In this document: positions 12,501 to 60,855 of the stretch, in pieces | Layout of the letters: the number at the start of each line of letters is the position of its first letter | Position numbering within the stretch: position 1 is the stretch's first letter | IMG/VR virus record: IMGVR_UViG_3300050821_023931 | Coordinates: 1 to 64,000 of that record | Direction: 5' to 3' (one strand) | Origin: a virus | DNA length: 64,000 nucleotides | Translations under genes and position numbers: made by a program | Notes under the pieces: model-generated | Told to the model about the DNA's origin: nothing | Database searches by the model: none | Seen by the model: only the letters and a program-made list of their open reading frames with translations

Positions 12501-15500
12501 GTATATTGGTTAAGATCCTTTAAATTATGCTCAAGTCTATTATTAGATGGTTGTGGTCCTACTGGTATTGTTTTAGATGTTGCTGGTGTATGAATTCCTG
12601 GTAATTTTAATCTTGTTGCTATACCACTATTTAAAGTATATGTTGTAAATGAAGGTGTAGCTTTTTGTATACCATCAAATAAATTAACAAAGAATAGACC
12701 TTCTTGTGAAACAGATATTGCTGGATCACTTGCGTATTTTCGTACAACTGGTGATCCACTAGTTGAGTACATATCTGTTACACTGGTAACATTATAAGAA
12801 GCAGCAACACTATTATTAATTAATTTGGTTGAATAATTTATTGAGAATTTATTAATCTTAGTTGATGTATCATACAAATAAATACTTGTTGTATCTAATG
12901 CTATTTTATTTGCTATAGCTTGATAATTAATCTTATCTGCTATCATACCAGTTACTACAGGAGTGTTGATAGTTCCCCAATCTGTAATAACAGATAAATT
13001 AGCCGTATTAAATTTAGAACCACTTTTTAAAGCATTAACCTGTATCGTATTATTGTTTATTGTAGTCGTATAATTTATATAAGCACCACTCAACTCAATT
13101 ATATTATCTACAACATAACCAGAAGTTGACTCTGATGAAAGTTGAAGATTGAATACAGCTCCACTAGTTGAAGCTAAACCAACAAGACCTGAAGCCATGT
13201 TAGCATTTGTAGTAATACCAGTATTTATTTCTTCAAGTCTGTTAATAGTAAAAGGCTTACCATTGGTTGCTGAATGATTAGCACCAGCTTTTGTTTGTGC
13301 AACTAATAAGGTTCCTTCATAAGTTAATGTGTAATTAGTAAACGAACTATTTGTAATATCTAATAAAGTTCTTACAAGTATTACTTGACTCTCATCACCG
13401 AGAATAAAATTTACCCATCCACCATAAATGCCAGGATTAAATCCATCAATAGAAGATTGTGCTGGACTATATGCAGAAGTTGAATAAAGACCATTTGTAC
13501 CAAAAGCAAAAGATGATGTACCATTTATAGGTGTGAAATCAGATAATTTATAAAGTGTAACAGCACCATTCTCAAAAGTTTCAGTAAATGTTATTGTATC
13601 ACTAGCTACCTGAGCAATAGTACCAACTTCATAATTTATTGTATTCAACGATCCTGATGTACCATTTAAATAGATAGGTGATGTGTTGACCGTATTTCCA
13701 CCAATTAAAATATTAAATATATCATATCCACCAGTATTTGAACCTAATAATTGTATAGTACCATTTGTACCACCAGATATATTTACTGTTCCGGTATCTA
13801 ATGTTCCTGTTATTGTTGTAGCAGTTAAAGAAGCTGTAGTTCCTGTACTTCTGAATATATCAAGAGATTGTCCTTTAAGATTAACTGTGTAACCATTAGA
13901 AATTATCTTATCTCTAAGTCTTCTTAACATATAATCCTGATCCTGACTAAATGGATTTATAAGTGTTTTAGCTATCGTTGTAACACCATCATTTATCTGA
14001 ACAACATAAGGCACATTGTTATTATTAAAAGTTAAATTACCATAATAGAATGGATCTAACGCTATTCCACCAAAAGGATTTGAATTGAAATCGTAATATG
14101 ACCCAGTATATGAACCCTGTGTACCATAAACACTATTATAACCATAAATGAAACTATAAGAACTTCCAGATGTTGCAGCACTAGATCCTGAAGAACCATA
14201 AATGTTATACAACACCAATATATTATCATTACTCACTGCTATATCAATAGGTGTAACAGAATATTCAAAAGCTAAACCACTTGATGAGAAATTACTAATT
14301 ACTTCAGGTGTGGGTAATACAAAATTATCTGAATTAGATTTTACGCTAACAGAACCATTAGCTAAAATAACAGCCTTACTTTTAAATGAAACAAGTTTAC
14401 TTATATTTGGAAGATTATCAGATATCAAAGTTCTATTTAATGTGGGGTTACCATTTGTTCCAGATATAGCTTCTAAACGAACCAAACTAGTATTATCTGT
14501 ATAATATACTAAGTAGTTTGAATGATCCGTAAAACTTGAAACTGATATAAGATTAGCTTCGTCAAAAACTAAATCATTCTCAGAATGATTGTATAATACT
14601 TCTGAACCATTTAATATGCTTAAATTAACTGAACCGTTTTCGTTAATATCATTTATAGGTTTAGTCATACCAATATCGACTGGTATAAAATAACTCCAAC
14701 CAGCTGTAGAAGCTGATAAATTTTTACTTACATATAAGGTATCCGTATTATCATAGAAATATAAACTGATACCACTCGTTGAAGAGTTCTTGATAAATTG
14801 TAAATCTTTTACTGTTCCTGTATGAAGTGTATAACTAACAGATGCTGTTGCTGAATCTATCAATTTTATTTTCGTACCATCCGAAACAGCAAACATTGTT
14901 TTTCCTTGATACGATACAGAAGAGAATTTCTTATCATTAACAGAAATAGACGATGAAGTTCCTGTTATTAAAGCTGTAGTTACAGTACCTGTATTATCAA
15001 ATAATTGGTATAAAGAAGGAGAAGATACACCAACTAAACCATATAAAAGTGTATCTGTACCAGCTATATCAACGAGATTAGAAAGTACAACAGTACTAGT
15101 GAAAGCATTAGTAGCTTCTTGTACAATAGTATCATTTAAGACATAATTGAAATTACCACATCTGTCTAATGTTCGTACCGGTATATTTAAAATATTATAA
15201 TTAGAACCTGGGTTCTCTTTAAACTGTTTGTATCGGCCTTTAGTAACGGTGTTATTTTGATATATGCAATTTGTTACAGCATCATAAGTAATGATGTTTC
15301 CATTATTAACAAGTATATAATTAGAACTTTGTGAAATATTTGAGTCATATTGTGGTTCAACACTATAGAATGTATCATCTTGTGTACCACCTATTATTAT
15401 TCTGTCTGGAACTTGTTGTGATCTGTATATTTCTCCTCCGTTAGTACCAAAGGATGTATTTACAGTCATATACAAATCATTAGTAGCTTTATTAAGAAAC

Positions 15501-18500
15501 TCTGACCAAACATTAGCTCCAGGAGTAATTATTTCAGATTCCATTCTATAAACAGTACCATCATTGAATAAAAGATACAGACAAATACAATCAAAGGTTC
15601 CTGTGTTAAAAGTATCACAAGTTAAATCTATGATTCCTGGAATAGTGTCTATTAAAGTAGATGTTATTGCACCTATTGAAGATATAGCTAGTTCATATAA
15701 ACTATCTGCTAACATAACATAAAGATAAGTGTATCCGGATAAGTTAATACCTGTTATTAACCGATAACTTGTGTTGTATGTTAGTGTAAATGGTGTTCCA
15801 ATACTTAGTAGTCTAGTTGATGTTGTAAAATATACATGACTTGCCGTACCAACTAATACATGTACTAAATCTAATATAGGCTCATTCGTTAACGATATAA
15901 GTTCTGTAGGTTGTGTTGAAATATTATTAGTAACCTGAATTTGGTACTGATTACCTTCATCATTTATAGATGAGAAATATATTGTATTAGTATCAGGACC
16001 AAATACCATTCTTAATGGTGTAAAGTTTAAAACAGGAATAGAGTTTACATAAAGATTAGGTAAACTTTCGTTAACCTTTATTAATCTTTCTATTGTAGAT
16101 GGATCAGGACTTTTATCATCACTTAACCAATATTGATAAGAAGTTGTAGAATTTACAAGATCTAGTAATCTTAATTTTGTATTAGGATTATTAAATCCTG
16201 CAATACCGGAAACGAAATCTGTAAAGCCTATTACAGTAGAGTCTGCTGGGTATAACTCACTGGCAGCATTATATAAAAGTCTAGCATTCTGATAACCGAG
16301 TCTGATATTATTGACTTGGTAACTTAAAGCATTATTTGGGTTTAATTCATTCGTAGTAACACTATTATCTAATGAAGAAATATAGATTCTTTTTATTCTT
16401 TGTGTAGTACCAAAATCAGATGGTTCATTAACAATAAAATAAAAAGTATTGAATATAGTTGTTAATGTATCGTCAACTGTGATTGTAGAAACAGGATATT
16501 GTATATCAGAAATATCTTCAGTATATATTAGAGTTGGTGAAGAACTTAATATGAAAACATTGTTTTGTAAATTTAATGATACTTGATATATTAAATTACC
16601 CTGATATAAAAACAGAGATGTTTTTTCTGTATTTTTAACCCGTATACCATTCATATAACCATATGAAATTGTGTTAGCAATACTAAATCCTGTTACACCT
16701 TGATTAACAGTATTTGTATTAATACTGTAAATTTGACCATTTCTTAAATAAAGAATATCATTAAAGTTTAAAGAAACATCTGTTGTTAAAAGAAAATCTG
16801 CTTCTTCTACGGTAGCATTATTGAAATTATCAGCAATCCATATATCTTTATAAACAATGATTTTAGTTTGTGTCTGTGTAGAGACTGTTATATTATTAAT
16901 AGAATTAATATAATCAGCATTTTTAGTCTGTTGAATAATTTGAAACTGTGTCTTATCTTTACTAACTCTTAACCATCTGTATTCAGTTACACTTATATTA
17001 TTTGTAATTACATCAAAATCATCAAGAAAATAAACCCAAGGAGAATTGTCTGATGTAACCATTTTACTAATACGGTTAAAAGCAAATATTTCTTTCTCTG
17101 GATTATTCAATATTATACCGATAACATCAAGACTATCTGTATTCGTATTATATTCAATCACACGTTGATAAATTCTATCAGCAAACCAGAACAGACCAGT
17201 TTGTAATTCAAGAACATCAATACTATTGTTAATTACAACCAATGGTAATTGATTAGCCTCTGGAGGATTCGGATTATCTAATGTATCATCAAGACCATTG
17301 TATATTTTAAGTCTAGTACCATACTGATCTCTATTGATAATATTGAATTGTTGATTATTAAATACATTCGGGCTTATATTATCAAAATCTTGGAATATTA
17401 TATTGTAATCATTTTGATAAAACGACGGTTGGTCTAATTGTATCCATCCATTACCATCTACATATATAACACTTGGTGCTGAATTCGATTGATTAGTAGC
17501 ATCATTTCTACTTCTGTTGTTTAGAATACCACCATTGCTTTTATCTTTGAATACGCCAAGACCAGTAAGATATGTTCCACCTCTAAAATCAATGCTATCA
17601 ACCCCAGCGTTCTCAATCGATCCATTTAGAAATATACCATTCTTGAATAACCCTCTTTTCCAAAAACCGTTATTCCAGGTTCCGTTATACCATATAGAGT
17701 CACCAAGAGCAAAAGTATTATCTACATTTTCTGCTTGAGCATCAAAACTATTAGTCATGATTCCTTCCATCCAAACACCTGATAACCAAACACCCGATAG
17801 GTAAATACCGTTATTAAAATTACCATTTTTCCAATATCCTGAACGCCATACTGCTTGTATATTGGTATTTGTTAAATCATCACTAAAAATAGAATTAAAG
17901 TTACCATTTTTGAAAATATTGTCTTGAATAAGACCAGAATTAAAATCACCATTCTCCCAAATAGAAGTACCAACAACATTATAACTTCTCTCATTTATTA
18001 ATTCATAATCAATAAATATATCAGATGCTGATATGTTAGGTATAAATGATGTGTCAAGTGTGATTGTAAGATCATATTTGTTAATGTCTATAATTCTAAG
18101 TTTAGTGTCAATATTAGTTTTTACATTAGTAATTCTGTTTTCTGTTGTATTACTATCGATATTAACAACTAATGTTATTTGTCTAACAATATTAATGTTG
18201 GCAACTTCTACCCAATCCCAATATTTAAAATCATCTATACTCTCTACAGATAATGTGAGAGTATCTCTTGTACCATTTAATATATCTGTAAAAACCGTAA
18301 GAGTTCCTTTTTTATAACCAGTCTGCCAGCTTCCAGCATTCCATACACCCTTACAGAAGTTAGATTTAGAAATTCTTGCATATTGAAGGTTTAATGGTAT
18401 TGAAGGAACAACTGCATTAATGACAACAGCAAATCTTAATCTTTCTTGAAGATCCGCTGTATAAAGTATATTTATAATTGGGAATACATTCATATTTAAG

Positions 18501-19945
18501 AATGATTCACCTATCTGATCCGAATAAGATTGTAAGTAAGTATTACCAATAACACTTTTGATATATGATATCAATATTTCATCACCTATTTTAAAATGAC
18601 TTAGGTATTGTTGATCAATTTCTATGTTTACACTAGTTCCATTTTGATAGATATTTAATATTCTAAAAGTAGAAGCACCAACCCATGAACCATTTATCCA
18701 TATAATATCTTTAACTAAAATATCAGTAGCAATACCTGTTACTGGTGTAGAGTCGAATATTCCACCTTCCCAAATAACGGTTGAATATTCGGAAGATGCT
18801 TGGCCAGATTTGAATATACCATTCCAAAATTTACCACCTTGTAAGGCTATATTTGTATAACTTCCAGAAAGTATATCAGTATCGAAAAAGCGTCCTGTAT
18901 CAAATGAGTTTGGTTTAATTGGTGAATCGCTAATAAGAATTTCCAAATTAAAATATCCTATCTCTTTAAATAAACGTTGAGTTATATCTGTTGTAATAGC
19001 AGATAATTCAGTATTTATTTCTTTTATGAATACACTGTTATCAACAATAGAATCAATATTAAAAACTCTATCATTTTTACCAAGATTAATATATTTGTTT
19101 TTGAGTCTAAGTTGTATTGAAAACCCAGCATTATATGCTTGTTGAAGTTCATATGGTAATGATAGAAATTGAATTTTATCATCAGTTATGTTTAAATAAT
19201 GATTGTTTAAATAAATTCGTCCAATATTTCCACTAACAAAAATATTATATCCAGCACCATTAAAATTATTAGCAAAAGTTACTATATTAATTCTTGAACT
19301 ATCATTTGGATCCTTTATAGAACCAAATTGGTTAAGTTCTTGATATTTACCTGTTTTATTAGAATTATATTTACTTGTAAATGCACCATATTGTATGGAT
19401 CCTCCTATTACGGTACCTTGTGTAAATTGAGCTGGTGTATTAATATATTTATTGTTGAATTTAGCTGAATTTGTTTGAACAGGATTTTCTGAATCACCAT
19501 TTTCTGAAATTTTAAATTCTCCAAACAAACCACTGTTAAAAATTCCACCATTAAATTCACCTCTAACAAATACTGATTTAGAAAGATATGCTTCCTTGAT
19601 ATCATTAACGCCTGGTGAGGTTAAATAAACCGTTGGTGGATTAATTATTAAACTAGTAATACCAGCTGATGTAAAGGATTCATTACCTATTGTAATAGGA
19701 ATGTTAAGAGTAATACTATTTGAATTATTAGTATTATCTATATCTAAAATCGTATATCCAGCAGCAAAAGGATCATAAAGATTATAGGCTGGATTTTCAG
19801 GTTTAGTAAATTTCGTGTTATCATAATTACCTCCATGTATAAATACTCTATCACCAATTGAAAGATTAGAATCTAATTCAGTATAAAATTTTAGATAGTT
19901 ACCATTTAAATCTACATAATTTAAAAGTTTAACACTATTTGACAT
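6572..19945 (-). CDS. Giant tail fibre/adhesin-like virion protein, 4457 aa
   Basis: A single uninterrupted 13.4-kb frame. It contains many blocks of a five-residue aromatic-glycine repeat of the form [W/F]xxGx (for example SIWYNGTWNNGFWKRG and AVWTRGIWKNGIF). The blocks lie at about 19360-19580, 18700-18860, 17520-17960, 12130-12240, 10430-10510, 9340-9990, 8240-8720 and 7560-7810. This periodicity suggests a beta-solenoid or stacked-strand fibre. Bases 12300-17400 lack it and instead resemble repeated beta blades (LYQLFDNTG, IYYFSS-like strands). Gly-Thr-Ser tracts occur near 8100-8225. There is no enzyme motif. A TATATAAA element lies 22 bases upstream of the ATG. It likely forms a long host-contact fibre; receptor unknown. 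Confidence 0.75.
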   Translation of the reverse strand: MSNSVKLLNYVDLNGNYLKFYTELDSNLSIGDRVFIHGGNYDNTKFTKPENPAYNLYDPFAAGYTILDIDNTNNSNSITLNIPITIGNESFTSAGITSLIINPPTVYLTSPGVNDIKEAYLSKSVFVRGEFNGGIFNSGLFGEFKISENGDSENPVQTNSAKFNNKYINTPAQFTQGTVIGGSIQYGAFTSKYNSNKTGKYQELNQFGSIKDPNDSSRINIVTFANNFNGAGYNIFVSGNIGRIYLNNHYLNITDDKIQFLSLPYELQQAYNAGFSIQLRLKNKYINLGKNDRVFNIDSIVDNSVFIKEINTELSAITTDITQRLFKEIGYFNLEILISDSPIKPNSFDTGRFFDTDILSGSYTNIALQGGKFWNGIFKSGQASSEYSTVIWEGGIFDSTPVTGIATDILVKDIIWINGSWVGASTFRILNIYQNGTSVNIEIDQQYLSHFKIGDEILISYIKSVIGNTYLQSYSDQIGESFLNMNVFPIINILYTADLQERLRFAVVINAVVPSIPLNLQYARISKSNFCKGVWNAGSWQTGYKKGTLTVFTDILNGTRDTLTLSVESIDDFKYWDWVEVANINIVRQITLVVNIDSNTTENRITNVKTNIDTKLRIIDINKYDLTITLDTSFIPNISASDIFIDYELINERSYNVVGTSIWENGDFNSGLIQDNIFKNGNFNSIFSDDLTNTNIQAVWRSGYWKNGNFNNGIYLSGVWLSGVWMEGIMTNSFDAQAENVDNTFALGDSIWYNGTWNNGFWKRGLFKNGIFLNGSIENAGVDSIDFRGGTYLTGLGVFKDKSNGGILNNRSRNDATNQSNSAPSVIYVDGNGWIQLDQPSFYQNDYNIIFQDFDNISPNVFNNQQFNIINRDQYGTRLKIYNGLDDTLDNPNPPEANQLPLVVINNSIDVLELQTGLFWFADRIYQRVIEYNTNTDSLDVIGIILNNPEKEIFAFNRISKMVTSDNSPWVYFLDDFDVITNNISVTEYRWLRVSKDKTQFQIIQQTKNADYINSINNITVSTQTQTKIIVYKDIWIADNFNNATVEEADFLLTTDVSLNFNDILYLRNGQIYSINTNTVNQGVTGFSIANTISYGYMNGIRVKNTEKTSLFLYQGNLIYQVSLNLQNNVFILSSSPTLIYTEDISDIQYPVSTITVDDTLTTIFNTFYFIVNEPSDFGTTQRIKRIYISSLDNSVTTNELNPNNALSYQVNNIRLGYQNARLLYNAASELYPADSTVIGFTDFVSGIAGFNNPNTKLRLLDLVNSTTSYQYWLSDDKSPDPSTIERLIKVNESLPNLYVNSIPVLNFTPLRMVFGPDTNTIYFSSINDEGNQYQIQVTNNISTQPTELISLTNEPILDLVHVLVGTASHVYFTTSTRLLSIGTPFTLTYNTSYRLITGINLSGYTYLYVMLADSLYELAISSIGAITSTLIDTIPGIIDLTCDTFNTGTFDCICLYLLFNDGTVYRMESEIITPGANVWSEFLNKATNDLYMTVNTSFGTNGGEIYRSQQVPDRIIIGGTQDDTFYSVEPQYDSNISQSSNYILVNNGNIITYDAVTNCIYQNNTVTKGRYKQFKENPGSNYNILNIPVRTLDRCGNFNYVLNDTIVQEATNAFTSTVVLSNLVDIAGTDTLLYGLVGVSSPSLYQLFDNTGTVTTALITGTSSSISVNDKKFSSVSYQGKTMFAVSDGTKIKLIDSATASVSYTLHTGTVKDLQFIKNSSTSGISLYFYDNTDTLYVSKNLSASTAGWSYFIPVDIGMTKPINDINENGSVNLSILNGSEVLYNHSENDLVFDEANLISVSSFTDHSNYLVYYTDNTSLVRLEAISGTNGNPTLNRTLISDNLPNISKLVSFKSKAVILANGSVSVKSNSDNFVLPTPEVISNFSSSGLAFEYSVTPIDIAVSNDNILVLYNIYGSSGSSAATSGSSYSFIYGYNSVYGTQGSYTGSYYDFNSNPFGGIALDPFYYGNLTFNNNNVPYVVQINDGVTTIAKTLINPFSQDQDYMLRRLRDKIISNGYTVNLKGQSLDIFRSTGTTASLTATTITGTLDTGTVNISGGTNGTIQLLGSNTGGYDIFNILIGGNTVNTSPIYLNGTSGSLNTINYEVGTIAQVASDTITFTETFENGAVTLYKLSDFTPINGTSSFAFGTNGLYSTSAYSPAQSSIDGFNPGIYGGWVNFILGDESQVILVRTLLDITNSSFTNYTLTYEGTLLVAQTKAGANHSATNGKPFTINRLEEINTGITTNANMASGLVGLASTSGAVFNLQLSSESTSGYVVDNIIELSGAYINYTTTINNNTIQVNALKSGSKFNTANLSVITDWGTINTPVVTGMIADKINYQAIANKIALDTTSIYLYDTSTKINKFSINYSTKLINNSVAASYNVTSVTDMYSTSGSPVVRKYASDPAISVSQEGLFFVNLFDGIQKATPSFTTYTLNSGIATRLKLPGIHTPATSKTIPVGPQPSNNRLEHNLKDLNQYTTNRNFDVDVLINGYKHTNSTTYPFVLDSVNSPYITGRVMYNLYLTGNVSFNVGGTPYTAHLVSSVWDPYISDTSNGLFIGSWDTPKYVDYNYNSKESRFLNGIFQGEWYDGIFEGGLFENFGNGTISTFHEGLVLSDNNNVTFASGRIEPDSRRNDITYVELNLDTNQLILRITALYNLDGQYLEDASPLAKTDLIRIPGLFKEEKININEVRKLSFDPNGIEELLLVCDVPEWLDSTISIATLWTNQNIFIAGLVSSQVPGEDVYINRLYIELFGEQTVTSTFVVNNQLYVTIQCENTLTDPSYVFPVGQKPYIWMNQIFRIIDKKNLNSIKSEIEILLEYPSPEFISASDKLNWVKGALIMDSVYVEYSGTSGISTFLSASQNKAVVYAPQYAQVFRTNFVQTNFPISLTSDTTLTNISFKDIIKTGIVMSSALVVGEDIMIENSDITSVNNYTLRGAVNPSNPVLSGKLNNVIFLSGETDLDFYTGAWLNLDRYGFSNGTSKFKSVTYNQYIPASGTYVATTLQSSFFGENYLLLNNRVSFTNNTLTLTIPSANDLLWNVNDYITLRGFSGVNSYLLGSSRSRVFRITNYSYDPFGLLATVQITLPKAVNVVIDSEEITLFSDQPLTITGDQDITNYTLISDTDTLPFTYTLSTAYLSNNVWNGGDFDGLIFNGIWNGGNFRNGAFGSTSGATAQWFSDTESYYWGGLTELVKTTNDTNYTITIDLTGKPFLTGDLVYVRFNDYLREDSFYAIVDMNKKVNGFTLNNFTVGEYGVNIIRYKTNNTLFLNQNLSLGPESDITLHTAASNSFGTNGGWTETETFVVTPNTEDAQWDINSVSRDSIFYNGVFMSDIFRSGVMMAGHNNSSLKLIWKYGVNEGATLYNTLWIGGFNNGGVHYNTEWLRGRWSNGEWRSGSWFSFDQNLNYNLPYSIWTGGVWYSRNTANYLPNGQSYNTGNNSLITNNYQLATESSVWYGGIWESPVVTDINGNLKTYTWDSDFTQQFGVQISNTINDEALLLPKVSSLWLGGQWYRGEFRGGIFYGGIWHSKSLQNEDKYFSIDVASDFNLVSNMFTGNLTFTISNNGVPFYSQVINSLPLGSSTINNGISTILKNVSTAFKSNLYPVTYTSDLDSNGIAVNGKLIFQNKNLTDSWSAVYNTAASGEAILLNNYVIDSYDVTQSKFKGGKFINAVWLGGIVDDVTDPNEIIFGDCIGDNVQLISDDSGFNNESVSFNESIISNTQTITGINLFNNQTSISSIWKSLKAVPLNSIYSAVWTRGIWKNGIFKHSSWYNLATDIFVDNYYVSKFNYQSKFRKGLFYGSVWDGGLWVASNGKFVQNGIVISDNLISTFSESRWKKGYWTTDDTHTTIVANAGDETEVTNSTFWRSVWDCGVFEGGVFDLSVWRSGYVVNDIPTISMAATSGTAGTSGSNQVYLQYQRNKLTIEYDLDNIYGTSGTNGTSGESNTRSYDVLSVMDNMKLLSPTNIVSNYYNQMLGYNWSFNVTDNTGTRNIAQSATINVDNQKFNGTYGTAGITSISLTTQDLSLLNPYRFTGNVDNFASIWINGIMRGSIWHGGVWMRGMFLHKETPNKDFFNQKPINDIGLVNTSYQEFNLGFWFRGIWLAGYFGYYNDTQVEISNDWNTYLNSYNNPRNRSLYMSMDPFTITSDMDPTSISGYRVATTLSNIYNHISTSSIFTRATNKLSTGRGFHSVFNGHMLGGSILDNDTKMDRKILISSFAIIGNVYVSGSSTSGNTVDPGAALNFKLRNATTIDNSTQLPLPLDYNQLSNKYNYYNTIPSINLVSNINYGNSFNYTFRHNNSKYGDGTLSTDLPSLAQGAIEHFHKTELIGEPFHSTSGVVDYSSATTISTIDYVQNVANNDLILLITLNNYDLTTGIVNEFTITPNPKTGSGSLTINSGIDPNGLIQQTSYIYNGSNIITNSTTMFVAKVNKPTTSNLIIGTSYFIAIQLS

Positions 19946-20048: not shown

Positions 20049-21920
20049 TTATTTTACTTCTTCATAATCTACAGTTTCAGCATCTTGAGGTGTCTCTGAA
20101 GCTTCTGTTTGAGCTTCTGTTGTAGCAGAATTTGATTGTATTTCACCATAAAACTTACTAAGCTCCTGATTAAGACTTGTAGTTAAAGAATCCATTTTCG
20201 TAAAGTCTTTAGAATTCTTAGCTTCTATGAGATCTTTAATTAAAGTTTCAACTGAAGACTTAGTTGCTGGTGTCACTTTGTCACCATATTCTTTGAATTG
20301 TTTTTCGGCCTGAAATATTGTTGATTCAACAGCATTAAGTTTCTCAACTTCCTCTTTGAATTTCTTATCAGCTTCAGCATTTGCTTCCGCTTCACTTTTC
20401 ATTCGTTCTATTTCTTCTTTTGTTAGAGATGTTTTATTATCAATTCTGATAGATTGTTGTTTACCAGTATTTTTTTCTCTTGCTGTAACAGTAAGTATAC
20501 TGTTTGCATCTACACTGAATTTAACTTCTATCTGAGGTGTTCCACGCATTCCTGGGGGAATTCCATCAAGAGTAAATTTACCAAGAGATTTATTATCAGA
20601 AGCTCTTGTTCTTTCACCTTGTAAAACATGTATTTCAACAGATGTTTGATTGTCTGAAGCTGTAGAATAAACTTCTGTTTTTTCTGTTGGTATAGTTGTA
20701 TTACCATCAATCATCTTTGTAAAAACGCTTCCAAAAGTTTCTATACCAAGTGAAATTGGTAAAACGTCTAAAAGTAAAATATCAGTTGTTTCTCCAGTCA
20801 AAACGCCACCTTGCAGAGCTGCACCCTCAGAGACACAAAGATCCAAATTCAATGTTTTATTAAGTTTTTTACCAAAGAATTCTTCTAATTTTGTTTGTAA
20901 AGAAGGTATGCGACAGCTCCCACCAACAAGTAAGATATCGTCAATTGATGTTATATCGATATTTTCTTTTTTTAGACATTTATCACATAAATCAATAATT
21001 CTATTATTGAAAAATTCTATCAACTGTTCGAATTTTGATCTACTAATTGTTTTATTTAAATGTAAAGGTACACCATTTAAAACTGTTATATACGGAAGAG
21101 AAATATCAGAAGAAGGGCTAGAGCTTAATTCGCATTTTAGTTTTTCGGATGCTTCTATAAGTCTTTGTAAAGACATTGTGTCTTTTCTTAGATCAAATCC
21201 AGTTTCTGTGAGAAACTCAGTGGCAACATAATTTATAATTGCCTCATCCACAAGAAATCCACCTAAATCTAAATCGCCATGGGTTGATACTATCTCAAAA
21301 ATATTATCTGAAATATTTACAACTGAAATATCTACAGTGGAACCTCCAGCATCAACAACTATTACAGTTTTTTCAGTATCATCTGGATATTTCACATTTA
21401 AACAACCAGCTGTAGGCTCACTAATAATCCTTTCAACTTGAAGATTGCTTATAATACCAGCATTTTTAGTTGCTTCTCTTTCTTCATTATTAAAGAAAGC
21501 TGGTACTGTAATAACAGCTCTTGTTATTTCTTCACCCAAATAATCTTCAGCAGTTTTCTTCAATTTTTGAAGTATCATGGCTGATATTTCTTCTGGTGAA
21601 TAAACTCGGTCACCAATTTGAACAGCAGCCCTACCGTTTGAATTTACAATTTTGTAGGGGCGTTTTAAATCTTTCACTTGATCATACGTTTTACCCATTA
21701 ATCTCTTAATGTTATAGATGGTATTCTCTGGATTCATGTTGGCTTGTCTTTTTGCTGAATCGCCAACCTTTATACCATCTTTCGTGAAAGCCACCCAACT
21801 TGGGGTAGTGTATAAACCTTCAGAATTAGGTATAGTTTTTACTTCCCCACCTTCGATAATTGATACAGCAGAATTTGAGCTTCCCAAATCTATTCCGATT
21901 ATTTTGTTTGATTTTGACAT
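20049..21920 (-). CDS. dnaK: Hsp70 chaperone DnaK
   Basis: 623 residues, close to the bacterial length (638 in E. coli), so a complete chaperone. The ATPase domain is clear: GIDLGSSNSAVS at the N-terminus (phosphate loop 1), AVITVPAFFN, the phosphate-2 segment VVDAGGSTVDISVV and the adenosine segment LVGGSCRIP. The linker is LLLDVLPISLGIET and the substrate domain contains the GIPPGMRGTPQIEVKF block. The helical lid is Ala/Glu/Lys-rich and ends DYEEVK. It sits one base after the hsp20 stop, so the two are co-transcribed. No DnaJ or GrpE lies in the window; it would have to use host or distant phage partners. It may fold the very large tail proteins (inference). Confidence 0.95.
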   Translation of the reverse strand: MSKSNKIIGIDLGSSNSAVSIIEGGEVKTIPNSEGLYTTPSWVAFTKDGIKVGDSAKRQANMNPENTIYNIKRLMGKTYDQVKDLKRPYKIVNSNGRAAVQIGDRVYSPEEISAMILQKLKKTAEDYLGEEITRAVITVPAFFNNEEREATKNAGIISNLQVERIISEPTAGCLNVKYPDDTEKTVIVVDAGGSTVDISVVNISDNIFEIVSTHGDLDLGGFLVDEAIINYVATEFLTETGFDLRKDTMSLQRLIEASEKLKCELSSSPSSDISLPYITVLNGVPLHLNKTISRSKFEQLIEFFNNRIIDLCDKCLKKENIDITSIDDILLVGGSCRIPSLQTKLEEFFGKKLNKTLNLDLCVSEGAALQGGVLTGETTDILLLDVLPISLGIETFGSVFTKMIDGNTTIPTEKTEVYSTASDNQTSVEIHVLQGERTRASDNKSLGKFTLDGIPPGMRGTPQIEVKFSVDANSILTVTAREKNTGKQQSIRIDNKTSLTKEEIERMKSEAEANAEADKKFKEEVEKLNAVESTIFQAEKQFKEYGDKVTPATKSSVETLIKDLIEAKNSKDFTKMDSLTTSLNQELSKFYGEIQSNSATTEAQTEASETPQDAETVDYEEVK

Positions 21921-35166: not shown

Positions 35167-36375
35167 ATGTCATTAAAATACTTTGATTCATTTAGCAAGT
35201 TTTTAGAAAATAAAACTGAAGCTGGTGATACAGATATAAAATCTAAATTTCTTAGAAGAGATCCAGATAAACTTATTCATAAAGCTAAGGATAACATGTA
35301 TTCTTTAAATTTTGATCACGCACTTGAATTATTTTCTAAAGCTTTCAGGAATGCTAGAGAAGAGGATAAAGATGAAGCTGTAGAAGAAATAATGTCAGCT
35401 ATAGATTCATTTGAAGTAGAAAAATTACCTAATCTAGATGATGATCAGAAAGAAGAGTTTAAAAAATTTGAAGATGATTTAGATTTATCTTTTATTGAAT
35501 CAGATAGAAAATTAAAAGCTGCTTTAAGAAAGATTGATAATGCTGAGGATAAAATTACAGATGCTGAAGAAGCTCTAAAAAATAAGGATCTTATAAAAGC
35601 TGCTGAATATATTAAGGATGCTGAAAGAAAAATAGATAAAGCTTATTTTAAGAAAATTGAAGATAGTGAAGCCTCTGATGAGGATAAAGAAACCGTTAGA
35701 CATAAAATAGCTGATGTAATAAGTAAAATAGCAACTGTCCAGGCTGATATAAAAGAAGAGACAGAAAATATTAGTGATGAAGCTGAAAAGGAAAGAGTCA
35801 ATAAAAAATTAGATAAAAGAGAACTTGAAGTTGTAGCTAATTTAGAAGATCCTACTCTACCTTCAGCTGCGGTTGGTACAATAGGTACACATATTAATAA
35901 TACGGAGCAAACAACAAATGAACCAGCTAAAACTGATGATACTGTTAAAAGTAATGTTACTACTACTTCAGAGACTGAAAAAGCAAAAGAGGAAGATATA
36001 GTAAACAAAGAAAATGTTCTTCAAGTTGCTTTAGATCCAGAACTATATAAAAATCCTAAATTTAAAAAGACTTTAAATGAAATAGATGCTAATAGACTCG
36101 CAATAATTCTATGGAATGCTATGGATGGGTTAGGTACAAATGAAGAAATTTTATTTAATGCATTACGTTCACCACAGCTTAAAAATATAGCAGATTATTC
36201 ATATCTATCCGATGTTTACAAAAAAATATCTGCTCAAAAAGGAGATGATCCAGTACAAGATCTTTACTTAGCAATATATGATACTCTTATGGGTCAGACA
36301 GAATTAACTACTTCTGAAAGAGATGAATTAGCAGATATTATACTTAATAAGATTAAAGACTCTTTTAAAAAATAA
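35167..36375 (+). CDS. Leader-bearing coiled-coil protein with annexin-like C-terminal segment
   Basis: 402 residues. The N-terminus (LKYFDSFSKFLENKTE) is a capsid-targeting-like leader. Residues about 34-75 resemble a TPR hairpin (LNFDHALELFSKAFRN). About 90-220 is a Lys/Glu-rich helical/coiled-coil region. A Thr/Glu-rich linker leads to residues ~305-400, where LAIILWNAMDGLGTNEEILFNAL closely matches the annexin repeat core (A-x-x-L-x-x-A-M-x-G-L-G-T-d-E-e-x-I), followed by two helices. Annexins bind membranes through such repeats with calcium; the single repeat here may be only structural mimicry. Candidate packaged and injected protein. Confidence 0.55.
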   Translation: MSLKYFDSFSKFLENKTEAGDTDIKSKFLRRDPDKLIHKAKDNMYSLNFDHALELFSKAFRNAREEDKDEAVEEIMSAIDSFEVEKLPNLDDDQKEEFKKFEDDLDLSFIESDRKLKAALRKIDNAEDKITDAEEALKNKDLIKAAEYIKDAERKIDKAYFKKIEDSEASDEDKETVRHKIADVISKIATVQADIKEETENISDEAEKERVNKKLDKRELEVVANLEDPTLPSAAVGTIGTHINNTEQTTNEPAKTDDTVKSNVTTTSETEKAKEEDIVNKENVLQVALDPELYKNPKFKKTLNEIDANRLAIILWNAMDGLGTNEEILFNALRSPQLKNIADYSYLSDVYKKISAQKGDDPVQDLYLAIYDTLMGQTELTTSERDELADIILNKIKDSFKK

Positions 36376-37449: not shown

Positions 37450-38604
37450 ATGATTAGAACACTAGAACCAGAAATTGATATCTTCGATGATATTACATCC
37501 TTAATTAAGGTAAGAAAGGGTGAAAAAATTTTAAGTAGAGAACCTTATGCTGCCGAGCTTTATAATTTAATGCTTGGATATGACACATATGATTCTTCTA
37601 CGAATACTTTAGCAGAAGGAGATGTTGTTGAAGGTAGAATAGTTCAAATGACAGAACTGTATCTTGCTGTTGACATTCGCTCAAAAGATTATCTCTATAT
37701 TGACATGAGGTCTGATGAGTCTCTAGCAATTAGAGAATCTGGTAAAACTATTGGTGATAAAATATCTGTACTTGTTACACATTTTAAAACTGATCCATAT
37801 GATGCTAGAGGAAGTTTTACTAAGTATTTAAGACAAGTTGTTGAAGTAAAAATGAAGGAGGATTCTGATACTGAAACAATGTTCAAATGTTACATCAAAG
37901 AATTGACTCCGGCTGGTTATCTTGTTGATATTGTTCGTGAGGGTCTTAAATTTGCAGCCTTTATGCCTAATACTCTTGCTGGTGTAAATAAACTACATGA
38001 TCCACAATCATTAGTTGGTACCACAATGGATATTATGTTAGATGGTTACAGTTATGAAAAGAAAACCTTCATTGCTTCCAGAAAGAAATATTTAGAGACT
38101 TTGATTCCTTCAACTATCAAGAAAATGGATATCACTGATGCTGAAGGTAATTATTTACCATACGAAGGTGTTGTTACTGGTGTATCTGATTTTGGTGTGT
38201 TTGTTGAAGTTTATGGTTGTGTTACTGGACTTATTCATAAGTCTAATATTGAGCCTGAACTTAAAATTGATACAATTCAGCCAGGTAAAATTATAGCTTT
38301 CTATATTAAAGAGAAACTAGCTAAGAAATTAATACTTACTAGAGTTATTCGTGAGACAATTTGGGATACCATAAGAGGTGGTCGAATATACGATGGTATA
38401 GTGAAAGATATTAAATCATTTGGTGCTCTTATCCGTTTGGATGAAGAAACAATAGGTCTTATACACAATTTAGAAATGGTAAAAGGTGGCTTTACATTAA
38501 AAGCTGGTGATACTGCTCGTGTAAAAGTTCTTTCTGTTAATAGAGAAGATAGAAAAATTTTCTTGACTATGGCTCCTAAAAAGACCTCTAAACCAGCTAA
38601 ATAA
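37450..38604 (+). CDS. Multi-S1-domain RNA-binding protein (ribosomal S1-like)
   Basis: 384 residues with about four S1 (OB) domains: ~56-125 (LAEGDVVEGRIVQMTELYLAVDI), ~142-210 (TMFKCYIKELTPAGYLVDI), ~238-305 (YEGVVTGVSDFGVFVEV with TGLIHKSNI) and ~312-380 (YDGIVKDIKSFGALIRL with IGLIHNLEM and NREDRKIFLTM). The last two are canonical. Bacterial S1 usually has six domains; this is a shortened version. In Bacteroidota, start selection relies on A-rich leaders and S1 rather than on Shine-Dalgarno pairing, so a phage S1-like protein could favour phage mRNAs. A strong terminator follows. Confidence 0.75.
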   Translation: MIRTLEPEIDIFDDITSLIKVRKGEKILSREPYAAELYNLMLGYDTYDSSTNTLAEGDVVEGRIVQMTELYLAVDIRSKDYLYIDMRSDESLAIRESGKTIGDKISVLVTHFKTDPYDARGSFTKYLRQVVEVKMKEDSDTETMFKCYIKELTPAGYLVDIVREGLKFAAFMPNTLAGVNKLHDPQSLVGTTMDIMLDGYSYEKKTFIASRKKYLETLIPSTIKKMDITDAEGNYLPYEGVVTGVSDFGVFVEVYGCVTGLIHKSNIEPELKIDTIQPGKIIAFYIKEKLAKKLILTRVIRETIWDTIRGGRIYDGIVKDIKSFGALIRLDEETIGLIHNLEMVKGGFTLKAGDTARVKVLSVNREDRKIFLTMAPKKTSKPAK

Positions 38605-39214: not shown

Positions 39215-39858
39215 TAGTAGAATCTAAATATAGAGAAATTGCCCGGTATATCATTTTCATGAAAATGGCTGAGAACCTGGCTAAATTAAGTTGTGATCCT
39301 AAACGGCAGGTTGGAGCTTTGCTTATTAAGAAGGACTTTAAAAATGTTATTAGTATTGGTATCAATGGTACTATACCTGGAGCATCAAACAGACGTTCTA
39401 GCATGGAGACAGGATCTTCCGGACTGAGACATGCTGAAAGGAATTGTTTGGTTATGGCTAATGTTACAAACCCAAAAGAGTATATGTTATTCTGTACTTT
39501 ATCACCTTGCCCAGATTGTGCTGGTGATATTGCTGTAGCAGGTATTGATACTGTTTATTATAAGGATATTTACCCAAGTGGTTTTAAGGCTGGCCAGATA
39601 GCCATGACAGAAGCAGATATTAATGTTGAATCTATATGGGCTAAATTAAACAGACTGTTTACCGATATCGTTCATGGATCCATGGTCCTTTACAGAGAAT
39701 CTTTTTATAGTAAAACTATAACTAATGAAGGTGTAACCATATTAACAAAAAAGTATCTCGAAAAATTCGGGATACCTTTTGATGATAATTTAGATATGAC
39801 AGACTGGAAATACGACTTTGTTGGAAGTTTTACCAAATATCTGTATAGTGTTGTTTAG
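39208..39858 (+). CDS. dCMP/cytidine-type deaminase
   Basis: 216 residues. Zinc-dependent deaminase motifs: H75-A-E77 (LRHAERN) and C101-x-x-C104 (SPCPDCA), plus the upstream CDPKRQVGALLI segment common to dCMP deaminases. It converts dCMP to dUMP, feeding thymidylate synthesis together with the overlapping DHFR gene. The C-terminal ~75 residues are an extension of unknown fold. Its stop overlaps the convergent gene at 39855 by four bases. Confidence 0.88.
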   Translation: MLVVESKYREIARYIIFMKMAENLAKLSCDPKRQVGALLIKKDFKNVISIGINGTIPGASNRRSSMETGSSGLRHAERNCLVMANVTNPKEYMLFCTLSPCPDCAGDIAVAGIDTVYYKDIYPSGFKAGQIAMTEADINVESIWAKLNRLFTDIVHGSMVLYRESFYSKTITNEGVTILTKKYLEKFGIPFDDNLDMTDWKYDFVGSFTKYLYSVV

Positions 39859-40196
39859 TATTTATTAAACTCGGCGTAGATGTTATTAACTTTTTTAACA
39901 AGATTTTCATCCGCTACTTCGTTTCTCAACATACTTCTGTGGCTATTTAAAATAGCGATCATGTGACTAAGTTTAGCAACAAGATCTTTGTTTTTAATTT
40001 CAGTCTCTTCAGGAGTAGTTGCTGCTGGTTCAGCTGGTGTTTGATCTTCACCGAAATCAACTGAATCGTTAGTAGTTGAAGCTGGTGGTGTAGCTGTTCC
40101 TGATGAGGAAGCTGTAGTTGTTTGTTTATCTTCTTCGAATTCTAAATTTTCATTAGCTTTAGTAAATTCGTGGAATGATTTAAGTTTTCTTTCCAT
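39855..40196 (-). CDS. Small protein with capsid-targeting-like leader, 113 aa
   Basis: Begins LKSFHEFTKANENLEFEED, very like the T4 internal-protein leader (aromatic, two residues, aromatic, then acidic sites of the xxE type). A Thr/Ala/Pro-rich linker (TASSSGTATPPASTTND) follows, then a C-terminal helix pair (LVAKLSHMIAILNSHRSMLRNE ... NNIYAEF). A TATATAAA element lies 31 bases upstream. Candidate internal virion protein, cleaved during head maturation (inference). Confidence 0.6.
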   Translation of the reverse strand: MERKLKSFHEFTKANENLEFEEDKQTTTASSSGTATPPASTTNDSVDFGEDQTPAEPAATTPEETEIKNKDLVAKLSHMIAILNSHRSMLRNEVADENLVKKVNNIYAEFNKY

Positions 40197-40850: not shown

Positions 40851-41309
40851 TTAACCAATTACTTTAATATTTTCTGGTGGAACCGTTTCATCAAGAGTGA
40901 TGTCACCACCTACTAAATCAGGATGAGCATCCATATAAATATCAAATAACATATCCCAGTCGGTCTCACCAGTTTCTTCATCCTCCATTAAATCAGAATT
41001 CCAATAAGTATTTTCCTCTGGGTATAGATCATAATAACTATCAGGTGTAATTGTTATCTCTAATAGTACTGTGTCACCACCAACTCTCTGTATACCAGGA
41101 TCACCTAAAACTGTATGAATTACAGGTATTATTCTACCATAATTAGGAGAAAGACCTTCTTTCATTATATTTTCTAAATATTTAGGTTCCGTTCTGTGGT
41201 ATAATTTAACACCATTAGGAAACATAGCTGTTAATTTATTTACAAAAATATCTTGAAAATACGATTCGCTATACTCGAAATTTTCAAATGTTTTAATGTA
41301 AATACCCAT
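40851..41309 (-). CDS. Probable ADP-ribosyltransferase with capsid-targeting-like leader
   Basis: 152 residues. The leader IKTFENFEYSE (5-15) resembles T4 head-packaged proteins. The body has GVKLYHRTEPKYLENIMKEGL (33-53): a strand with the Y-H-R-T of the NAD pocket (H38), then the helix I-x-x-x-G-L common to small ADP-ribosyltransferases and the KptA/DarT-like group. GGDTVLLEITI (78-88) places a Glu (E84) at the strand where such folds carry function, and VPPENIKVIG closes the protein. In T4, Alt is packaged and injected to ADP-ribosylate host RNA polymerase; this smaller protein may act alike. The family is inferred from motifs only. Confidence 0.55.
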   Translation of the reverse strand: MGIYIKTFENFEYSESYFQDIFVNKLTAMFPNGVKLYHRTEPKYLENIMKEGLSPNYGRIIPVIHTVLGDPGIQRVGGDTVLLEITITPDSYYDLYPEENTYWNSDLMEDEETGETDWDMLFDIYMDAHPDLVGGDITLDETVPPENIKVIG

Positions 41310-43863: not shown

Positions 43864-44451
43864 TTATTCTTTTGATGGTATTATGTTAGAAAACAAAGCC
43901 TCAGTCTCAATTATACCAACAGTAGCATCAAAACTTGTTTCGCTATGTTGTTCTATTCTAAGATAATTTTGCTCATTTTTATCCATATAATCAAAACAAA
44001 CCATTTCTAAAGAACTTTCTATATTCGTTGTTTCTACATCTCTAACAAAACAAGGCTTTTCATTTTGTAGAAGGAATTCTATACCATTATAAGTAATCTT
44101 ATTTGGTGCTGTTTGATTTTCAACAATAGAATCCGCTAGTGTTTCATCAATAGCACCCATATTTACTCTTTCTGTTACAATAATACGAAGACCATTCATA
44201 TCATCCATATAAATATACTTATTAATTGTACCATCGGTAATCTTAAATTCAAATGAGAATACATTATTACTCCAGTCAAACTCTATTTCTTGAATGACTT
44301 CCCAGGCTTTTCCGATATAATCTATAAACCAGCCAGGATGAATATCTGTGATTTTTAGGTTTAATGGATCGTAATTCAATTCAGATTCATCATTTTTGTA
44401 TGATGTAAAACCAAAAAGGTTTTTTAAAAAGTTAAAGATTCTTTTGATCAT
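43864..44451 (-). CDS. Hypothetical protein, 195 aa
   Basis: First gene of a leftward trio (43864, 43668, 43432) with gaps of two to four bases. Begins with a basic amphipathic segment (MIKRIFNFLKNLFGF), which could associate with membrane, and continues as an acidic beta-rich protein (VFSFEFKITDGTINKYIYMDD). A TACCTTTG element (44484-44477), similar to the host -7 box, lies 25 bases upstream, without a clear -33. Function unknown. Confidence 0.6.
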   Translation of the reverse strand: MIKRIFNFLKNLFGFTSYKNDESELNYDPLNLKITDIHPGWFIDYIGKAWEVIQEIEFDWSNNVFSFEFKITDGTINKYIYMDDMNGLRIIVTERVNMGAIDETLADSIVENQTAPNKITYNGIEFLLQNEKPCFVRDVETTNIESSLEMVCFDYMDKNEQNYLRIEQHSETSFDATVGIIETEALFSNIIPSKE

Positions 44452-59049: not shown

Positions 59050-60855
59050 ATGACAAAGTTTTTTAAGAAATTTGATAGTTTTATGAATGAAGGTGCTATG
59101 ATTGATCTTAGTACTATATTTGTATCAGCCGTTTTTGGAAGAAGTCTTTTTGAATATAGAAAAGTCAATCTTAAATTATGTGTTAGTGGTATTAATAATA
59201 TTCTTGAAAAATCTTTTAATGAGTTTACTTCCAATAATGTTAATGAGGCTGTATCTGTAGACCGTTATGATCAGGCTATGGAATATTTAAATTTGTATAT
59301 TGAAAAATTAGAAACTTTTATCGATTCTTTAAATAAGAAAATTATTGATAAAGAACAAGCAAAAGAATTAGTTGATCTTATAAAAAAAATAGACAAACAA
59401 TATTTCTCTCCTGCTATAAATGATATTTTAGCTGAACATTTAAAAGATTTTAATAAATTAAGGCTAATAACAAAACCTTACACCTCTAGTATAGACTCTA
59501 AACCATTTGTTATAAGTAAACAAGATATAGAAAAAAAGACCGCTGACCTAGCTGTATTAAAAGATTCGTATCTTGATTTGGTTAGAGATCAATCTGATAT
59601 AGAATATGGTATAGAAAATAATAAACCTTTACCCGATCCTGATTTTACTGTACAATTTTCACCAGGACAAAATAAAACACAAAATTCAGATCCTAAAAAT
59701 CCAGATTTTTTACAAATACAAGAATGGCTTAAGAAATTCCCTGAACTACTAAATATGTTCACCAAATTTAGATTCGATGAGAAAGTCTCGATGAGAAATA
59801 TAGAAGCACTTATTAAAGATATAATACTATACAGGGATTATGTGGGACATTTACCAAAACCAGTAGATCAATATGAATTATTCGATGAATTATCAAATGA
59901 TATTAAGGATTTAAAAAGTAAATTTAAAGTAAACAACACTACAGAAATAACAAAAAATAAACCTACACCATGGAGTAATGGTAAAAAGGAAACTTTAACA
60001 AACTATTTAATTGAAAATTATAAAAAACAAATAAATGAATATTTAGTAGATATTGCTAAAAGTAAATTTACTAATCCTACAGCTAAAGCCCGTGTAGAGT
60101 ATAATAAGATTTTGGAAAAAAGTTGGGTTGAATATAAAGACGAATTATTTGAAAAATGGAAAGATTATTATCTTATAGATAAACTAAGTAAGTTTTTTGA
60201 AATTGGTATAAAAATGACGACTACAAAATTACATGATTATAAAGATAATACTGATAATGATGTTGCTCAAAGGGTCCTTGAAAAATTACCTTTTATTGAT
60301 GCTAGTAGTTTAGAATCTGGTATTTCACATATAACAGCAGGAAATTTTTATATGGTACCTATTCTTGGTAATAATGATCATCCAACGCCACACTGCATTA
60401 TATTCTTTATACCAAATAATATAGAACAAATTGATAATCATGCTGGGTTATGGGCTATTCCTATAGCAAAGGTAAAATTTAATAATTTTAAATATAAAGT
60501 TGAACAATTCTTTCTTGATAGCTCCAACAATTTACTTTCTTCATCACCCATTTTCTTAGTTACTAATACCAAAGCTAATTTAGATATAGATGGTCAGAAA
60601 ATACTTCTTGTTAAAGTTGTACCTAATGAATTCAATATGTTAAAAATGCGATATATCAGAGTTGAAAATCCTGATACTGATAGAAAAGAAAATAGACTGT
60701 ATATAGGATCACCAATTTTTAAACTATTAGCATCTGAGATGAAAGACAAATTTAAAATTGATAAAAATAGTTTACATATAAAATATTATCCTAAAGATAA
60801 AGATGATATTGAAACCTATTTCTTCAGACAAAAAAGAACTAAAAAAGACAATTAA
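59050..60855 (+). CDS. Large leader-bearing virion-associated protein, 601 aa
   Basis: Begins FFKKFDSFMNEG, a capsid-targeting-like leader with an MNE site. The rest is long, charged and helical (NLKLCVSGINNILEKSFNEF ... KIIDKEQAKELVDLIKKID), with a Pro/Gly segment (LPDPDFTVQFSPGQN) in the middle and a beta-rich C-terminal third (HITAGNFYMVPILGNNDH, LLVKVVPNEFNM). No enzyme motif. In T4-like phages large leader-bearing proteins include Alt and head-internal proteins; packaging is inferred only. Confidence 0.55.
   Translation: MTKFFKKFDSFMNEGAMIDLSTIFVSAVFGRSLFEYRKVNLKLCVSGINNILEKSFNEFTSNNVNEAVSVDRYDQAMEYLNLYIEKLETFIDSLNKKIIDKEQAKELVDLIKKIDKQYFSPAINDILAEHLKDFNKLRLITKPYTSSIDSKPFVISKQDIEKKTADLAVLKDSYLDLVRDQSDIEYGIENNKPLPDPDFTVQFSPGQNKTQNSDPKNPDFLQIQEWLKKFPELLNMFTKFRFDEKVSMRNIEALIKDIILYRDYVGHLPKPVDQYELFDELSNDIKDLKSKFKVNNTTEITKNKPTPWSNGKKETLTNYLIENYKKQINEYLVDIAKSKFTNPTAKARVEYNKILEKSWVEYKDELFEKWKDYYLIDKLSKFFEIGIKMTTTKLHDYKDNTDNDVAQRVLEKLPFIDASSLESGISHITAGNFYMVPILGNNDHPTPHCIIFFIPNNIEQIDNHAGLWAIPIAKVKFNNFKYKVEQFFLDSSNNLLSSSPIFLVTNTKANLDIDGQKILLVKVVPNEFNMLKMRYIRVENPDTDRKENRLYIGSPIFKLLASEMKDKFKIDKNSLHIKYYPKDKDDIETYFFRQKRTKKDN

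Follow-up and report, generated by a model that had tools for sequence, protein, structure and literature searches.

The window analyzed here is a stretch of 64,000 nucleotides, positions 1 to 64,000 of the viral IMG/VR record IMGVR_UViG_3300050821_023931 (75,618 bp), and our subject within it is P0001, an open reading frame (ORF) at 40851-41309 on the minus strand that starts with ATG, stops with TAA and encodes 152 amino acids. A first-pass annotation, made from the letters alone, had described P0001 as a minimal injected ADP-ribosyltransferase (ART) with a capsid-targeting-like leader, about a fifth as long as the T4 protein Alt, and the elements it named are in place: the ORF is as described, IKTFENFEYSE occupies residues 5-15 and LYHRT residues 36-40, the helix said to end in EGL is modeled by AlphaFold at 42-51 with EGL at 51-53, GGDTVLLEITI spans residues 77-87 with a modeled strand at 81-87, and Alt measures ~682 amino acids (T4 alt, 123454-125502). 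Along the protein, the leader MGIYIKTFENFEYSE is followed by a predicted helix and then by LYHRT...EGLSP..GR...VLLEITI...VGGDITLDETVPPENIKVIG.

The record appears to be part of a larger phage genome from the megaphage group. Its tail sheath is closest to those of uncultured megaphages of 462-735 kb and unknown host, the next nearest belonging to Flavobacterium, Prevotella (Lak) and Tenacibaculum phages; a Bacteroidota host, as the annotation proposed, is no more than plausible. In megaphages of this kind, none of which has been cultured, most genes are without an assigned function (PMC9723777). We refer to the megaphages as W01 (LR756504, 636 kb), W02 (LR745206, 635 kb), W03 (LR756502), W04 (LR756501, 735 kb) and W05 (LR756500), and to a 158-kb relative as G004.

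The leader in megaphages and in T4

As far as sequence comparison goes, one leader family is demonstrably over-represented at the N-termini of proteins in five large relatives, and it matches the proven capsid-targeting sequence (CTS) of T4. Many unrelated proteins of W01 start with MK.[IL]K.[FY]..F..E; a canonical megaphage leader reads MSFIKKFNDFLNES. A position-specific scoring matrix (PSSM) of 15 columns was trained on W01 only; the remaining genomes were then scanned with it, and for the null, residues 2-30 were shuffled in every protein. N-terminal matches, observed vs shuffled, numbered 117 vs 8.0 in W02 (600 of 635 kb scanned), 111 vs 8.0 in W04, 44 vs 7.0 in W05, 16 vs 2.4 in G004 and 6 vs 0.6 in the P0001 record, the 87 vs 10.2 of W01 coming from the training genome itself. 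Control phages outside the group had no enrichment (MaF61, 1 vs 1.2; Lak-B2, 3 vs 1.9; PTm1, 3 vs 0.85), and the matrix scan of Lak-B2 detected no Lak-phage form of the leader. With a core-only matrix lacking the initial Met, megaphages were still enriched (108 vs 22, 109 vs 19, 128 vs 18 and 50 vs 17). Leader-tagged genes are scattered genome-wide. The leader positions use synonymous codons in the ordinary genome mix, and selection at the leader therefore acts on the protein; on the same ground we rejected a DNA-level cause, such as a promoter or translation element in common. No description of such a leader in megaphages was found in the literature searched, the coverage of which was incomplete.

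The P0001 leader itself scores 15.5. Shuffling the protein's own N-terminus produced at least this score in 8 of 20,000 trials, and shuffling the N-termini of the record and its nearest relative did so in 12 of 44,400. A simple regular expression applied to the record alone gave little signal (4-5 matches vs 1.3-1.5 expected), and the leader signal is clear only once the megaphage relatives are included. Residues 1-12 have a low predicted local distance difference test score (pLDDT) in the AlphaFold model.

The CTS of T4 head proteins is ~10 amino acids long, with conservation limited to IPII and IPIII (PMC9958956); targeting depends on its residues 4 and 7, and processing on 8 and 10 (PMC9026906). 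The W01-trained matrix, to which T4 was unseen, placed IPIII first (11.9) and IPII tied second (9.9) among 145 T4 ORFs, while IPI (0.8) and Alt (-6.8) did not match. P0001 has the K-preceded aromatic pair [YF]..F at its N-terminus, as K6-T7-F8-E9-N10-F11. The capsid-targeting leader of the earlier description thus finds support, from the score, the shuffles and the T4 ranking, as a leader of IPII/IPIII type but not of Alt type. The comparison of leaders with Alt was rejected and, since neither IPI nor Alt matched the matrix, the original analogy is, judged by these scores, right in outcome and not in sequence.

The relatives lend support to a role of the leader in the head: an S77 prohead protease is found in all five full megaphages, as are gp23-type capsid proteins, and a site of the form [LIM]xE/N (the slash marking the putative cut) is conserved at about residues 40-45 in five of five major capsid proteins. 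Taken together, the sites in megaphage leaders and capsid proteins have the form [LIM]xE followed by S, N, A or G. The pattern [LIMVF]xE[SAGN] stands behind the leader in 144 of 382 leader proteins vs 36 in shuffles, a count that is partly circular because the matrix itself favors E. The ART relatives of P0001 keep [LI]xE/GL behind variable leaders (LLNE/GLIKT, LKE/GLIKT, LFE/GLIKT, LYE/GLITS and LNE/GLIMS).

In a blind alignment of 134 leader proteins, MKxIKxFxxFxxE was the only common part. Their Pfam domains include leucine-rich repeats (LRR), methyltransferase, metallopeptidase, PNKP phosphatase, RNA ligase, NUDIX and radical SAM, as well as an SMC-type match for which the leader is probably false. 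The RNA ligase of W02 (470485-471747) has its leader, MKLFKYIEFINENSKNEYSIPSYEEAVEL, placed before the point at which the orthologues of W01 (MIEKFHIPSYEEAVDL) and W04 (MNKYYIPTYRECL) start, these having no leader and beginning with the enzyme itself, and one of the two PNKP-domain proteins of W05 carries a leader (317088-317720). On these alignments the leader is modular and, since it tags proteins across whole genomes of megaphage relatives, its significance is much wider than the first-pass annotation saw. The leader-bearing ligase and phosphatase are predicted to be head-packaged RNA-repair proteins, possibly directed against tRNA-cutting defenses.

The same tag could dock proteins to some other phage structure, such as a replication compartment, a membrane or a chaperone, leaving P0001 an ordinary ART-like protein made in the course of infection. 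In favor of this, so broad a tagged set, ranging from LRR proteins and methyltransferases to a metallopeptidase, NUDIX and an RNA ligase and drawn from the whole genome, would be much for a single head to contain, and the cleavage site of P0001 is noncanonical. We nevertheless regard this explanation as unlikely: a matrix trained on a megaphage singles out the two T4 proteins with a proven CTS, a prohead-type site often stands behind the tag, with the circularity noted above, and all five megaphages encode the S77 protease.

A separate repeat was seen in W04, where the acidic peptide DPYGEE[N/D/I/E]W occurs in 105 copies in 90 of 963 proteins, often alongside the leader (examples in LR756501.1: 5130-5426, 44452-46983 and 475399-475854). 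It lies within the last 14 residues in 39 cases and within the first 25 in 20, and is absent from the other megaphages scanned; its P, Y and G codons are skewed relative to genome usage, which hints at DNA copying.

The ART-fold domain

A profile of megaphage relatives, with P0001 excluded, found P0001 among 3693 ORFs with an E-value of 3.4e-4, next after a KptA-like protein, and a wider profile of 22 sequences, again without P0001 but in part fetched by a P0001-derived DNA pattern, found it at 7.3e-7. A joint profile including P0001 matched KptA/Tpt1 (1.4e-9) and DarT1 (1.4e-7) in PDB; for P0001 alone, Pfam and PHROGs gave only a weak KptA match in PHROGs (E-value 0.27). The AlphaFold model built with 10 relatives has a pLDDT of 65, a predicted template modeling score of 0.60 and best core blocks at ~80-92. 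In a Foldseek comparison of this model with PDB, KptA/Tpt1 entries take the first 19 places, DarT1 comes next and other ARTs rank lower; viral matches include PBS1 gp278, a putative RNA 2'-phosphotransferase of phage PaBG, a DarT and a PARP-domain protein. The underlying alignment, A6, was picked by landmark agreement, A2, A4 and A5 having misplaced the central strands of P0001.

The hidden Markov models (HMMs) free of P0001, the PDB profile search and the AlphaFold model with its Foldseek matches all support an ART fold, and on this evidence the body of P0001 is an ART-fold domain of KptA/DarT type. Among the folds that the annotation had put forward for comparison, KptA/Tpt1 and DarT matched, while Alt and ModA did not: Alt, ModA and ModB gave no match in Pfam, PHROGs or the PDB sequence search, nor among the best 50 Foldseek rows. 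With the ART of P0001 being of the KptA/Tpt1-DarT kind, the proposal that it modifies host RNA polymerase in the manner of Alt is left without support.

KptA being the best match in both profile and fold, P0001 might instead be an RNA 2'-phosphotransferase (Tpt1/KptA) serving RNA repair, and the same profile also finds a full-length KptA-like protein of 186 amino acids in W05 (LR756500.1, 81897-82457), with both lobes and no leader. Most catalytic residues of Tpt1 are located in its N-terminal lobe, however, and the whole of that lobe is absent from P0001: only ~35 residues precede LYHRT, and in the solved KptA chain the alignment does not start until residue 92, covering the C-terminal lobe only. 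A phosphotransferase is therefore unlikely, indeed improbable in our estimate, and P0001 is more plausibly an ADP-ribosylating effector.

The combination of leader and ART is also found in W04 at 139563-139904 (113 amino acids, a second compact case) and at 161902-163488, and in sequence L163. Elsewhere, a phage protein of 1073 amino acids (positions 766-3987 of L181, IMGVR_UViG_3300035490_000323) has at least three ART-like blocks and is likely a polyvalent protein, with a Pfam PTS_2-RNA match only just under the cut-off.

Other features of the record

Three further genes of the window carry candidate leaders (Table 1), the one at 59050-60855 being the sole exact match to the T4-type regular expression in the record. 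Matrix matches at 1948-2658 and 43864-44451 were judged likely false positives; the latter ORF, on the minus strand, encodes a DUF4178-domain protein (E-value 2e-13) and shares a minus-strand cluster with P0001. The window also encodes an Hsp70 (20049-21920, minus strand; Pfam HSP70, 1.6e-198), a protein with S1 RNA-binding repeats that resembles ribosomal protein S1 (37450-38604, plus strand; Pfam S1, 9e-21) and, at 6572-19945 on the minus strand, a single ORF of 4457 amino acids. Two weak INPHARED matches to P0001 were rejected, that in Brandy because the aligned region is antisense to Brandy genes and that in PhiPS02 for its shortness and its E-value of 6.

Table 1. Features of P0001 and other candidate leader genes in the window
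Feature	Position	Strand	Evidence
P0001: leader and KptA/DarT-type ART-fold domain	40851..41309	-	ORF; family HMM, E 3.4e-4 and 7.3e-7 (P0001 outside training set)
Capsid-targeting-like leader MGIYIKTFENFEYSE, residues 1-15	41265..41309	-	PSSM 15.5, rank 2 of 72 ORFs in record
Targeting core KTFENF, residues 6-11	41277..41294	-	counterpart of KTYQEF in T4 IPII/IPIII N-termini
Candidate noncanonical protease site Y13-S14-E15/S16	41262..41273	-	P3 is Tyr, not Leu/Ile
ART-fold domain, residues 34-152: LYHRT, EGLSP, GR, VLLEI, VGGDIT..VPPENIKVI	40854..41210	-	alignment A6; PDB profile search; Foldseek
Acidic insertion preceding last strand, ~residues 103-131, absent in most relatives	40917..41003	-	alignment A6
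Candidate leader gene MERKLKSFHEFTKANENLEFE, 113 aa, no Pfam match	39855..40196	-	PSSM 7.8; near P0001
Candidate leader-bearing 402-aa protein MSLKYFDSFSKFLEN	35167..36375	+	PSSM 15.7
Candidate leader-bearing 601-aa protein MTKFFKKFDSFMNE/GAM, site MNE/G of canonical type, no Pfam match	59050..60855	+	PSSM 11.7

Proposed role and known systems

P0001 is probably a small effector of ART fold, packed by a megaphage into its own head; its packaging, cleavage, injection and catalysis we infer from the features above. During head assembly, the leader would bind the internal scaffold through Phe8 and Phe11, as T4 leaders do through Tyr4 and Phe7, and P0001 would by this binding be enclosed in the head ahead of DNA packaging, where the S77 prohead protease of the phage may trim it despite its poor site. 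On infection it would enter the cell with the DNA, act prior to phage gene expression and, most likely, move ADP-ribose from NAD+ to a host nucleic acid or protein, as one among dozens of cargo proteins per megaphage.

Several observations weigh against this explanation. On the side of the leader, the core-only matrix is weak on the P0001 record alone (4 vs 2.2), some matrix matches are false (e.g., SMC-like ATPases starting MIVKNIKIKNFKSFG), and the processing half [LI]xE, present in many leader-bearing relatives, is not found in P0001 (E12-Y13-S14-E15/S16), which makes removal of the leader after YSE, as first proposed, doubtful. No S77 protease was found on the 75.6-kb record, and the phage's own head system is therefore not seen. 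On the side of the fold, AlphaFold on the single sequence was unusable (pLDDT 40), the better model uses an alignment with members selected for correct landmarks and so favors the ART fold, and the Foldseek E-values are weak (0.024). P0001 has no direct homologues in searches of IMG/VR, INPHARED and GTDB; in an AT-rich genome, leader and ART resemblance might both be coincidence, a proposition we find highly implausible, contradicted as it is by the shuffle tests, the control phages, the independent HMM detection and the T4 positive control. Finally, His38 is conserved, but Asp136 stands where some relatives carry Glu and the second ART motif is divergent; the usual catalytic residues are thus not all evident, and catalysis is only putative. 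P0001 could be packaged and yet be no enzyme, a degenerate ART fold with a structural, binding or decoy role, to which the long acidic insertion may also point. We consider this doubtful, as LYHxT still has its His and Thr, and the GLxP helix and the VPPENI strand at the end are likewise retained.

P0001 may be one instance of a wider practice. We lean towards the view that, in megaphages of ~460-735 kb, the T4-type leader is a general detachable tag, by which ~40-120 different proteins would be packed into the head and injected with the DNA as a first strike preceding transcription; leader counts of this size in each giant relative suggest a large injected protein arsenal. The candidate cargo would then comprise ART effectors, RNA repair enzymes, methyltransferases, peptidases and LRR proteins. 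Should the leader serve as a tag for packaging, one short motif at the N-terminus would assign about one-tenth of the gene content to the class injected with the DNA, the early takeover and anti-defense proteins of megaphages would become predictable from sequence, and a mechanism known for a few T4 proteins would be extended to dozens. P0001 and the protein at W04:139563-139904 would be compact injected ART candidates, and the leader could be an exchangeable tag by which phage heads are loaded with proteins.

Among known systems, the C-terminal ART lobe of KptA/Tpt1 is the best profile and fold match of P0001 and shares LYHxT, GLxP, VLLEI and VPPxxI with it, but P0001 is without the N-terminal lobe of Tpt1. 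Gp278 of Bacillus phage PBS1 (152 amino acids) has the size and fold of P0001 and is related to the megaphage ART family, but has no such leader (score -6.9). Alt of T4 is likewise an ART-fold protein delivered alongside the DNA, if P0001 is indeed packaged, but its leader does not match the matrix, and P0001 is one-fifth as long and of a KptA/DarT-like subclass. SPN3US and phiKZ also package many protease-processed ejection proteins in their heads (PMC5694885), there with longer propeptides and AxE sites, whereas the megaphages have short T4-type leaders with [LI]xE. The nearest parallel to the leader is the CTS of T4 IPII and IPIII with its protease gp21 (S77): both are a short N-terminal K-x-[FY]-x-x-F (KTFENF in P0001, KTYQEF in T4), many megaphage leaders are likewise followed by [LI]xE and a small residue, and the full megaphage genomes encode S77. 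They differ in that P0001 has no canonical processing half, and in that the megaphage leader stands on tens to more than 100 unrelated proteins.
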